A stretch of 64,000 nt of DNA from assembly GCA_022769005.1 (NCBI GenBank), contig JALEKK010000024.1:1-64000 (forward strand), given 5' to 3'. This stretch comes from Lachnospiraceae bacterium. GTDB lineage: Bacteria; Bacillota; Clostridia; Lachnospirales; Lachnospiraceae. A program made the position numbers and the translations under genes. Within the stretch, counting starts at the first letter, position 1. Every line of letters starts with the position of its first letter. Shown piece by piece: positions 44,494 to 48,210 of the stretch. Under the pieces are notes generated by a model. It saw nothing but the letters and a program-made list of their open reading frames with translations, searched no databases and was not told the origin of the DNA.

Positions 44494-44598
44494 AATTATC
44501 CTCCTTTTCTTATATTAAGTGAAAAATTATCCACAATTTTAATATATAAATCACACTGTAACCGTATATGTTTATTTTAACATATAAAATAAATATGA

Positions 44599-44655
44599 TA
44601 TATAAATAAACGGATATCAATATGCATCCTTAAATATGGGGCATATTAATATCCG
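44599..44655 (-). terminator. Terminator after the small surface protein gene
   Basis: CGGATATCAATATGC (44611-44625) pairs with GCATATTAATATCCG (44641-44655), with one mismatch. Minus-strand TTTATTTATA follows. It lies just past the stop at 44671. Confidence 0.75.
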
Positions 44656-44670
44656 CAATTTTTCATATTA

Positions 44671-46263
44671 TTAATTTTTGTTTTTACGTTTTATCATATA
44701 AACCGACGATAATATTGTTACGCATGACGCTGCCGCAATTATGGATATCCACAAAACAATATTTGAATTATCCCCCGTTTTTACTGTATTCTTAACGGCT
44801 TCATTACTTTTGATAAGTTTAATGTCATTTTTATTTTCCTGAGTTGTACCTCCGGAATTATCTTTATCTTCAGTTTTGTTATTTTCATTATCGGGAACTG
44901 TTTCATTTTCATTATTATTTTTTACCTGAAGTGTAAAAAATATTCCCTCATCTCCCTCAGGTGATATAAAATCTCTTCCTTCATCAGACTGCTTTGCTTC
45001 CCATTCAAATTCAAATACTCCCTGACGGTTATTCATGGAAGCGACTGAGTGAAACATACCTCCGGATGCGCCTTTTACGGTATAATATTCTCCCTCTTTG
45101 GCATTATCGCTTAATTTAATTCCCGGAACGGTTATTTTTAATACATCGTCACATGCATATACCGCCTGCTCCAACTGATAGAAATTGGTTATATTATCGG
45201 TATTTAATGACATTATAACCTCTATGGTATCTCCCACAACCTGAACATTGCTGACTGAGAATGTAGATGCTCCGCCTTCGAATTTAACTTCGTCCGGAGT
45301 AGGAATCTTTGTGAATTCCATTCCTTCCGGAAGAGTCATTGAAGCATAAAATTCCGACCTGAGGTCACTTAATTTAATCTGTTCCTTATCTAACTGATTT
45401 GCATTGGTATTGGCTATTCTTGAAAGTTCCTTTTTTACCGGAATCGTTGTATATGTTCCGGTAAACGAATATACTCCTCCGGCTTTTGCCTCAAAAACCT
45501 TATCATGTTCCGTATCGTCACCGATAAGTATATCTCCTTCGGTAAAAACATTTTCACCTGTAGGAATTCCCGGAACAAATTCGGTAGTCAAAAGATTTAC
45601 ATTTGATCCCGTAAGACCGACACTTGCCGAAATCCATCTTCCGTATCCTATATTTCTTTCAGACGGAGTAACCGAAGATACATACTGAGATGAATCCGTT
45701 CCCTCTTTTGCTTTCCCCGTATAATTTATTTTAAATGCAACCACGGCGTCTCTAGGCTCTGTTTTATAACTTTCCACGGTTTCCTTAACGGTTCTTACCG
45801 TCGGATCCTTACCGCCGGTTATAAAAACCCTTACAACAAATACATTATCCGTATTTGATATCAGCTTTGTATTAACTATTGTTGCGGTGCTTGCATCCTC
45901 ATATGTTCCCGAAAATCCTTCCGGAAGCGTGACCGTAACGTCAACATAATTATTATTGTCTAATATTGTATACGCACCGCCGAGATAACTCTGAGCTATT
46001 TCAAGCAATCCGTTTATTTCATCAAGCATATCAGACTGATTAAAAGAATATGTCAATGTTCCGGAAACATCCGTATCTTCATATACTTTGTTTCCCTCAT
46101 CAACTTCAACTTTACTTACGTTTGTTGTTTCTCCCGAAAATGAAGCATTGTAATCTGCAGCTTTTACATCTGTTTTAAATCCTGTTATTCCGATGACGGC
46201 TGTTGATAAGGCTGCAAAAAGAACAATAGTGCTCTTTACCGATTTTTTCACATAATTTTCCAT
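44671..46263 (-). CDS. Cell-surface protein with sortase-like C-terminus
   Basis: A 530-residue exported protein. The signal peptide runs to about residue 35 (DVKA). The body is beta-rich, Ser/Thr/Val/Glu-rich, with no domain I can name. Near the C-terminus a low-complexity Asn/Glu/Lys linker (NETVPDNENNKTED) is followed by VKTGD, a membrane segment and a basic KRKNKN tail. The VKTGD segment resembles the NPKTG/LPKTG sorting signals in Clostridia, but the leading Leu-Pro is missing. ATG at 46263 is preferred because AGGGG lies ten bases before it. The 190 bases between the start and the terminator at 46462 hold a hairpin but no gene. Confidence 0.75.
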   Translation of the reverse strand: MENYVKKSVKSTIVLFAALSTAVIGITGFKTDVKAADYNASFSGETTNVSKVEVDEGNKVYEDTDVSGTLTYSFNQSDMLDEINGLLEIAQSYLGGAYTILDNNNYVDVTVTLPEGFSGTYEDASTATIVNTKLISNTDNVFVVRVFITGGKDPTVRTVKETVESYKTEPRDAVVAFKINYTGKAKEGTDSSQYVSSVTPSERNIGYGRWISASVGLTGSNVNLLTTEFVPGIPTGENVFTEGDILIGDDTEHDKVFEAKAGGVYSFTGTYTTIPVKKELSRIANTNANQLDKEQIKLSDLRSEFYASMTLPEGMEFTKIPTPDEVKFEGGASTFSVSNVQVVGDTIEVIMSLNTDNITNFYQLEQAVYACDDVLKITVPGIKLSDNAKEGEYYTVKGASGGMFHSVASMNNRQGVFEFEWEAKQSDEGRDFISPEGDEGIFFTLQVKNNNENETVPDNENNKTEDKDNSGGTTQENKNDIKLIKSNEAVKNTVKTGDNSNIVLWISIIAAASCVTILSSVYMIKRKNKN

Positions 46264-46461
46264 ATTTTGCAATCCCCTGACTATATTAAAAATTAAACAT
46301 ATTTATATATCTGTCTTAAATATAGCAAGTAATTAAAAAGCAAAATATTAAATTACCTAAACTGCCGAATGAATACTTATTTTGTACATTTTATTATATT
46401 TGTAAAATATAATAAAATGATATTTCTCATTCTTCGCACGATTTTCTGATTCGTAACACAT

Positions 46462-46489
46462 AAAAAAATCCTGCCGAACGGCAGGATTT
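46462..46489 (-). terminator. Terminator of the candidate RNA gene
   Basis: AAATCCTGCCG (46466-46476) is perfectly inverted at 46479-46489, with a two-base loop; the minus strand ends in seven T. No coding gene ends close upstream of it, which points to a non-coding or leader transcript. Confidence 0.85.
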
Positions 46490-46712
46490 GAGAATGAAAA
46501 CTTTACACTATAAATTCTTTGGGGAAGAAAATAATAGTTTAATAACTACCGCTTTAAATAGCACGAAGGAGAAATGTACATATTTACCCCGGTAGTATAA
46601 AGTTTGGGAAATATCATCGTCTATGGGATATTCCGATGATACCGTTGAAGTGTAAACACTTCACAAACAAATATACTTATTATAAATATATTCGTCTGCT
46701 TATTAGGGTAGT
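46462..46712 (-). ncRNA. Candidate structured non-coding RNA
   Basis: About 250 bases without a plausible protein, ending at a strong terminator on the minus strand. Complementary segments suggest folding: TTTACACT / AGTGTAAA as outer closing stem, TATCATCG / CGATGATA, and ACTACCG / CGGTAGT, besides GAAGTGT...ACACTTC near the 5' part. No motif of tmRNA, RNase P, SRP RNA, T-box or a common riboswitch is seen; a divergent 6S-type RNA cannot be excluded. It may instead be the leader of the 46263 surface protein gene, 190 bases farther on. Confidence 0.45.
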
Positions 46713-46751
46713 TAGATAGTAACATCATAATTTATGATTTTCCATTTTTTT

Positions 46752-46783
46752 TACCCGAACTGTAAATTAAGTACCCGAATTGT
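46752..46783 (-). promoter_or_regulatory. LytTR-like direct repeats upstream of the candidate RNA
   Basis: On the minus strand ACAATTCGGGTA (46783-46772) and ACAGTTCGGGTA (46763-46752) recur at a 20-base period. AgrA/ComE-type LytTR regulators bind direct ACArTT-type repeats about two helical turns apart. A possible -10 TACTAT lies some 35 bases downstream, and a TATAAT at 46679-46684. The repeat is seen; the regulator class is inferred. Confidence 0.5.
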
Positions 46784-46810
46784 GTTTTATATATGTATTA
46801 TTTGAATATA

Positions 46811-47359
46811 TTACATATTATCGGCACATTCGTCATATAAATTTCTTCCGCCGGAGTCGATTGCAACTATAACCGGGAAATTCTTAACCGTGAGTTTTCT
46901 TACGGCTTCCGGTCCCAGGTCTTCATATGCTATTACCTCGGAAGAAGTAATACATTTTGAAAGGAGGGCTCCCGCCCCTCCGACGGCAACAAAGTATATG
47001 CATTTATTTCTTTTTATTGACTCCGTTACTTCGCCGGACCTTCTTCCTTTTCCTATCATTCCGATAAGTCCGTTATTTAACAATGTAGGCGTATATTTAT
47101 CCATTCTTCCGCTTGTGGTGGGACCTGCCGAGCCTATTACCGCTCCCGGTCTTGCAGGAGTCGGACCCAGATAATATATGGTTTGGTTTCTTATGTCGAA
47201 GGGAAAAGGTTCTCCCTTTTCGTATGATTCAGTCATTCTTTTATGGGCCGCATCCCTTGCCGAATAAATTACTCCTGACAGGTATACCACATCGCCTGCT
47301 TCAAATTCCTTTATGTCATCTTTTGAAAACGGAACATTTAAATATCTCTCCATTATCAT
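46811..47359 (-). CDS. Class I fumarate hydratase, beta (C-terminal) subunit
   Basis: A 182-residue subunit homologous to the C-terminal domain of class I fumarases and to the beta subunit of L-tartrate dehydratase. Family landmarks are DVVYLSGVIYSARDAAHKR, GPTPARPG, AGPTTSGRMD and GKGRRSG. With the alpha subunit it forms the [4Fe-4S] enzyme that interconverts fumarate and malate. ATG at 47359 overlaps the alpha-subunit end by four bases, a sign of translational coupling. Whether the enzyme acts on fumarate or tartrate cannot be read; fumarate is the usual case in Clostridia. Confidence 0.9.
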   Translation of the reverse strand: MIMERYLNVPFSKDDIKEFEAGDVVYLSGVIYSARDAAHKRMTESYEKGEPFPFDIRNQTIYYLGPTPARPGAVIGSAGPTTSGRMDKYTPTLLNNGLIGMIGKGRRSGEVTESIKRNKCIYFVAVGGAGALLSKCITSSEVIAYEDLGPEAVRKLTVKNFPVIVAIDSGGRNLYDECADNM

Positions 47360-48210
47360 ATCTCCCTGATTTTATGTCTGTTAACATGACAGCACATATT
47401 TACGGCAAGAGGCATACCCGCAATATGAGTGGGATATGTTTCTATATTTATACCGAGTGCCGTATTTTTTCCTCCCAGTCCGGCGGGACCCAATCCGATT
47501 TTATTTATTTCGGTGAGAAGTTCTTCTTCAAGTTCGTCAACATATGGCTTTCTGTACGGAGAAGACGATTTCCCGTCAATATTTCTTGTAAGCGCTCTCT
47601 TTGCAAGTATGGCCGCCATTTCAAAATCTCCTCCGATTCCGACTCCCACGATAAAAGGCGGACATGCATTCGGTCCCGCATCCCTTACTGTATCCAATAT
47701 TGATTTTTTTATTCCTTCAAGACCGTCGGAAGGTTTGAGCATGAAAATACGGCTCATATTTTCACTTCCGAATCCTTTTGGAGAAACAGTTATTTTAACT
47801 TTATTCCCGGGAACTATATTCATATGTATTATTGCCGGAGTATTGTCATTTGTATTTATTCTTTCAACCGGATCTTCCACAACGGATTTACGAAGATAAC
47901 CCTCTTTATATCCTTCTCTTACTCCCCTGTTTACGGCTTCAGTCAGATCTCCTCCGAAAAAATGTACATCCTGTCCTATATCCAGAAATATAACTGCCAT
48001 TCCCGTGTCCTGACATATGGGTATCATTTCATTTTCGGCTATATCCACATTTTTATGAAGTTGATTCAGAACCGATTTCCCTACTTCTGAATTCTCTGTT
48101 TTTTCTGCATTAAATAATGATTTTTTTATATCACTTTCAAGATAGTAATTTGCTTCAATACACATTTCTTTAATATTTGACGCTATCTCGTTTACATCTA
48201 TTTCTCTCAT
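47356..48210 (-). CDS. Class I fumarate hydratase, alpha (N-terminal) subunit
   Basis: A 284-residue subunit with the cysteines that hold the [4Fe-4S] cluster: C66 in PICQDTG, C183 in PNACPPF, and one of C273/C274 in NMCCHVNRH. The KGFGSENMS motif is also present. It catalyses hydration of fumarate with the beta subunit. ATG at 48210 has GGAGG upstream. The two genes form a short operon upstream of the candidate RNA region; gyrA ends just before. Confidence 0.9.
   Translation of the reverse strand: MREIDVNEIASNIKEMCIEANYYLESDIKKSLFNAEKTENSEVGKSVLNQLHKNVDIAENEMIPICQDTGMAVIFLDIGQDVHFFGGDLTEAVNRGVREGYKEGYLRKSVVEDPVERINTNDNTPAIIHMNIVPGNKVKITVSPKGFGSENMSRIFMLKPSDGLEGIKKSILDTVRDAGPNACPPFIVGVGIGGDFEMAAILAKRALTRNIDGKSSSPYRKPYVDELEEELLTEINKIGLGPAGLGGKNTALGINIETYPTHIAGMPLAVNMCCHVNRHKIREI

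Follow-up and report, generated by a model that had tools for sequence, protein, structure and literature searches.

The window, by which we mean the whole stretch of 64,000 nucleotides that was analysed from a Lachnospiraceae genome, contains a gap of 538 bases (46273-46810) bounded by fumB, the gene of the fumarase beta subunit, which lies on the minus strand and ends at 46811, and by a gene for a sortase-anchored surface protein. The gap would be about 547 bases long if the surface-protein gene begins at the likelier ATG at 46263 instead of the TTG at 46272. No long open reading frame was found in it, which agrees with the initial annotation, where the gap was described as free of protein-coding genes. 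The surface protein itself matches no Pfam family. Between the terminator described below and this gene, at 46387-46419, two perfectly matching 15-bp A/T arms (CATTTTATTATATTT / AAATATAATAAAATG) form an inverted repeat around 3 central nucleotides, which may serve the surface-protein gene as an operator or as part of its promoter.

In three relatives of the same genus (L093, L095 and L096), a DUF4428-like gene directly follows fumB, with protein matches for two of them, while in the window the DUF4428 gene lies beyond the surface-protein gene, with the RNA described below and the surface-protein gene in between. Because the relatives pass directly from fumB to the DUF4428-like gene, the RNA and the surface-protein gene can be regarded as an insertion in this lineage. 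The inserted DNA (in the region 44500-46810) has a GC content of 33.6%, as against 37.2% for the window, and the RNA was not found in the syntenic regions of the genus relatives.

The initial annotation proposed that the minus strand of the gap holds a structured RNA with a terminator, and the folding calculations confirm this observation. Minus-strand 46460-46760 folds at -85.4 kcal/mol, whereas shuffled sequences reach -50.8 ± 4.8 kcal/mol (z -7.2), and the signal persists when the terminator is left out (z -6.0) or when both hairpin 1 and the terminator are left out (z -5.3). The opposite strand reaches only z -1.2, with 0.0 for the upstream flank and -2.1 for the downstream one; thus, the structure is strand-specific. 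The terminator is real as well, with 10 pairs counted in a stem at 46489-46466 (the initial annotation gave 11 bases), a TTCG loop and a T run to 46462. It is the sole terminator-like site in a scan of 45800-47400, where about one weak pattern of such a kind is expected by chance. Likewise, the three complementary segment pairs seen in the initial annotation exist: they correspond to hairpin 1, to hairpins 2 and 3, and to a long-range helix (Table 1), which in the minimum free energy (MFE) structure closes a three-way junction with hairpin 5 and an arm at 46545-46596.

Table 1. Features of the RNA locus and of the adjoining gene, in window coordinates
Feature	Position	Strand	Basis or remark
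Sortase-anchored surface-protein gene	44671..46263	-	C-terminal VKTGD sorting signal, hydrophobic stretch, basic tail
Small RNA (about 248 nt; both ends putative)	46462..46709	-	Fold z and covariance model
Intrinsic terminator	46462..46489	-	Terminator scan
Long-range helix, 46597-46605 with 46498-46506	46498..46605	-	MFE structure; C8 copy keeps part only
Hairpin 5, CCCCA loop, putative mRNA-pairing loop	46507..46538	-	Most conserved element
Hairpin 3, 10-bp stem, conserved UCCCAUA loop at 46622-46628	46610..46643	-	Pairs kept in C8 copy
Hairpin 2 (UGAAGUG-UUUA-CACUUCA)	46646..46663	-	C8 copy keeps stem, one G-U change
Hairpin 1, long A/U-rich stem	46663..46699	-	Predicted fold
Putative extended -10, TGTTACTAT	46716..46724	-	TGn-type -10 at equivalent place in C8 copy
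Direct repeat 2, ACAGTTCGGGTA, putative activator box (about -51)	46752..46763	-	Repeat pair
Direct repeat 1, ACAATTCGGGTA, putative LytTR-type activator box (about -71)	46772..46783	-	11/12 identity to repeat 2

The RNA is not the orphan that it was first taken for. A search of the same genome revealed a diverged second locus on contig C8, about 69% identical when aligned, which is also picked up by a covariance model made from the core of the window RNA. The C8 copy folds with z -7.8, has its hairpins in the same succession and ends in a terminator of its own (L021:2563-2605), equally strong and unrelated in sequence to that of the window. It sits between an Rrf2 regulator gene upstream and a calcineurin-like phosphoesterase gene downstream. 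Thus, the two copies have different neighbours, and both possess a terminator and a pair of repeats 20 nt apart, which points to independent units. No conserved small ORF common to the two RNA copies was found.

The comparison of the copies also bears on the structure. All 27 modelled pairs are standard in both, and sliding the partners by 1-3 columns lowers the proportion to 40-46%. For instance, hairpin 3 keeps 10 of its 10 pairs in the C8 copy despite six changed pairs, of which three are double-sided and three single-sided. Covariation is thin, since only two sequences exist, but such compensatory changes are a limited yet real sign of selection on structure. A 25-nt block in hairpin 5 (AAACUAUUAUUUUCUUCCCCAAAGA, 46516-46540) is identical between the copies, even though the RNA overall is conserved at the much lower level given above. 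We consider it very probable that the two loci represent a real and previously undescribed family of structured RNAs.

A search of the whole window against Rfam 15, a check proposed in the initial annotation, gave no family at or above the gathering threshold except one tRNA, so that none reached the cut-off at the gap. Sub-threshold matches to STnc50, rseX and others were rejected because they are centred on the terminator. Among 11 genomes of the genus, 397 of the family and 392 of the order, the covariance model recovered no homologue beyond the two copies, and blastn over 60 relatives found none either, nor did it return a convincing match in plasmids and phages. One pattern search of genome contigs gave no match and another gave 29, nearly all in long open frames and none convincing at full length. 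The pattern matches L024, L025, L026 and L028 were discarded as apparently coding DNA without the fold of the RNA. The single match in a pattern search of viral contigs (L051) was likewise rejected as coding-like, with a fold z of -0.1. As part of the best explanation, the family would be restricted to this species or very near relatives, but fumB of the genus relatives is only about 60-65% identical, and the absence of the RNA from them is therefore weak evidence on its age.

Upstream of the RNA, both copies present the same promoter-like module of two direct repeats and an extended -10. In the C8 copy, the repeat pair is CCAATTTGGGTA / ACAATTGGAGTA, and it is followed, as in the window copy, by a TGn-type extended -10, TGGTATATT, at L021:2337-2345. 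The repeat spacing is the same in the two copies, with matches at 11 of 12 positions in the window and 10 of 12 in C8, and shuffled sequences contained a pair as good in 4 and 34 of 1000 cases, respectively. When 1.45 of the 1.47 Mb of the genome was scanned with a matrix built from the four boxes, the two RNA loci scored 37.4 and 32.8 bits, while the next site scored 19.6 bits and was the only other one above the reversed-sequence control (maximum 17.6). The top rank of the RNA loci is partly circular, as the box pattern and the matrix were derived from them, and only the gap in score is informative. Within the genome sequence read, the repeat pair is restricted to the two RNA loci. Judging from the position of the -10, transcription would start near 46709, and the fourth base of the boxes would then fall at about -51 and about -71. 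The C8 locus has, in addition, interleaved inverted repeats at L021:2256-2310 (ACCCAAAT/ATTTGGGT and ATTGTCC/GGACAAT), which overlap the direct repeats and are absent from the window copy; they could be another kind of operator or a pseudoknot.

This upstream module resembles promoters activated by LytTR regulators, such as those of RNAIII, VR-RNA and SpoZ, in that a pair of direct repeats, spaced by about two turns of the helix, closely precedes the promoter. The SpoZ sRNA of Clostridioides difficile is activated by the LytTR regulator RgaR, which acts on repeats with key G residues at -51 and -72 (PMC10602386); VirR boxes share one helix face and closely precede the -35 (PMC2838878); and AgrA recognises a pair of direct repeats ahead of the RNAIII promoter, with the centre of the proximal ones near -60 (PMC4227749). 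One LytTR regulator was detected in the genome, on contig C19 (L046:7494-9557), convergent with an adjoining GHKL sensor kinase gene. The box spacing of 20, rather than 21-22, counts against a LytTR reading, and no direct repeats like those of the RNA loci were seen upstream of this sole LytTR regulator gene. A LytTR regulator as the activator of the RNAs is thus a tentative proposal, to which we give somewhat less than even weight, and we infer the assignment of the regulator to the boxes.

The module also matters for the possibility that the RNA derives from a 3′ UTR. It would then arise by read-through from fumB, or from the Rrf2 gene at C8, and would represent the terminator region of such a transcript, processed or not and possibly acting in trans. 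The first repeat does begin only about 30 nt past a same-strand gene in both copies, and no terminator turned up between fumB and the RNA when 45800-47400 was scanned. However, a promoter-like module common to both copies stands between gene and RNA, and the two upstream genes are unrelated, so we judge this origin to be improbable. The alternative that we lean towards, with some reserve, is an sRNA that acts in trans and is made from a regulated promoter of its own.

As to how such an sRNA might act, hairpin 5 exposes the sequence CCCCA and hairpin 3 the sequence UCCCAUA, and both loops are conserved in the two copies. C-rich loops of this kind are characteristic of sRNAs of the LhrC, RsaE and FsrA type, which block ribosome-binding sites with UCCC loops, and pairing of such loops with ribosome-binding sites has been proven for RNAIII, RsaE, SprD, FsrA and LhrC (PMC4132741). 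For the 17-nt loop region, 1187 start regions were ranked on the sum of duplex energy and the cost of opening; rank 1 went to the start region of a giant surface-protein gene on contig C29 and rank 3 to that of a sortase gene on contig C30. Thus, two of the top three genes belong to a 12-member class of sortases and anchored proteins, a result that none of 110 flank-shuffled loops reproduced, in a comparison where the class was fixed after the ranking was seen, though the neighbouring gene had suggested it. With a 25-mer seed, the two candidates drop to ranks 3 and 9. The idea that the pairing energy of the loop might be exceptional was rejected, as its best match was equalled by 20 of 60 shuffles. 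The surface-protein gene of the window pairs weakly with the loop (-11 kcal/mol), and no gene was found that would combine one loop on its ribosome-binding site with UCCCAU on an AUGGGA start. The match of the conserved loop to the ribosome-binding sites of the giant sortase-anchored protein and the sortase is therefore suggestive, and the predicted targets are best taken as leads; translational control through the C-rich loop falls, in our judgement, just short of an even call.

The two candidate loci may be described further. On contig C29 (L080:4042-12117, continued in L089), there is a candidate frame of about 2,600 codons whose product ends in VKTGD and a basic tail closely resembling that of the surface protein beside the window RNA; the frame is broken in the assembly near codon 130-170, and the candidate frame lies beyond the break. 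On contig C30 (L136, 7486-9327 of the reverse complement), two sortase-like genes lie in tandem, and the ribosome-binding site of the second along the strand is rich in G and complementary to the conserved loop of the RNA.

The same loops allow for another reading, in which the CCCCA and UCCCAUA hairpins would be protein sites rather than antisense loops, and the RNA would bind a protein or form part of a ribonucleoprotein. The near-invariance of hairpin 5, which extends to its stem, could reflect the needs of a protein site just as much as those of a pairing seed, and the unexceptional energies of pairing with the targets would fit this role too. Nevertheless, C-rich loops are the recognised mark of sRNAs that pair with ribosome-binding sites in low-GC Gram-positive bacteria (PMC4132741), and two top-ranked candidate targets fit a coherent class. 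We regard a protein-binding role as no better placed than a 3′-UTR origin.

The initial annotation also considered the RNA as a leader of the surface-protein gene, that is, as a cis-acting riboswitch or attenuator, and this fares worse. The RNA does lie upstream of that gene, on the same strand and with a terminator, and the two form one insertion between fumB and the DUF4428 gene. Yet the C8 copy precedes the phosphoesterase gene instead, and the RNA model finds no match beside homologues of the surface protein elsewhere, so that there is no constant association with this gene family. In addition, the terminator is strong, about 190 nt separate it from the surface-protein gene, and the list of repeats shows no alternative upstream partner for its arms. 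Given two different downstream genes and the terminator, a leader is decidedly unlikely. The last suggestion, a divergent 6S RNA, would suit the length and the two copies, as 6S paralogues occur in low-GC Gram-positives and 6S is widespread and of similar length, but it is refuted for practical purposes and its probability is negligible, since an ordinary 6S RNA was found elsewhere in the genome (G000:C21:19511-19689, 75.8 bits), the RF00013 model finds nothing in 46270-46815 even when E values as high as 10 are allowed, and the predicted fold is a hairpin array with a three-way junction, instead of the single long hairpin with a large central bubble that is typical of 6S. Thus, of the interpretations first offered, that of an undescribed sRNA is the one that is supported, with the lack of an Rfam family, the compensatory changes between copies and the promoter-like and terminator elements of both loci in its favour.

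The RNA would most likely work like several known regulatory RNAs, with no homology to any of them implied. RNAIII of Staphylococcus aureus, activated by AgrA, is also structured and has C-rich loops, and its weak promoter is preceded by a pair of direct repeats. It is longer than the window RNA and encodes delta-haemolysin, whereas the window RNA has neither a conserved small ORF nor an Rfam match, and no agr operon was seen beside the RNAs. SpoZ, controlled by RgaS-RgaR, is likewise an intergenic sRNA behind LytTR-type repeats at similar positions, but it has no known sequence relation to the window RNA, which differs in its two copies and its putative regulator. VR-RNA of Clostridium perfringens, activated by VirR, is a regulatory RNA behind a direct-repeat pair just upstream of the -35 and on the same helix face; its box sequence differs from that of the window RNA, and no homology was detected. 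LhrC1-5 of Listeria monocytogenes is multicopy, has several C-rich loops and represses an adhesin of the cell surface by covering its ribosome-binding site, but it consists of two stem loops with a single-stranded linker, has LisRK as its two-component system and shows no sequence relation.

Taken as a whole, our model is that a LytTR-type response regulator would bind the two direct repeats and activate the extended -10 promoter, and that the resulting RNA of about 250 nt would fold into its hairpin array, end at its own terminator and act in trans. Its C-rich loops, above all CCCCA and possibly UCCCAUA, would pair with G-rich ribosome-binding sites and block the translation of target mRNAs, the predicted ones including those of the sortase and the giant sortase-anchored surface protein. 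Of its elements, the fold, the second copy, the conserved structure, the terminators and the conserved and unique promoter module are computed results; transcription, the LytTR regulator, the pairing and the direction of regulation are proposed. We consider this complete sequence of events, including transcription from the proposed promoter, to be evenly balanced. It is unlikely, albeit conceivable, that a species-restricted pair of RNAs, with a dedicated two-component activator that targets only them, controls the sortase machinery together with the surface proteins that it anchors in a commensal anaerobe, as an analogue of RNAIII outside Staphylococcus. To our knowledge, descriptions of trans-acting regulatory RNAs are scarce for the uncultured gut-type anaerobes of this family. 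The present RNAs occur in two copies, their promoter module is defined, their putative pairing loop is invariant and candidate targets can be named, so that they offer a directly testable case of how a two-component system and an RNA may together govern the cell-surface proteins of such anaerobes.
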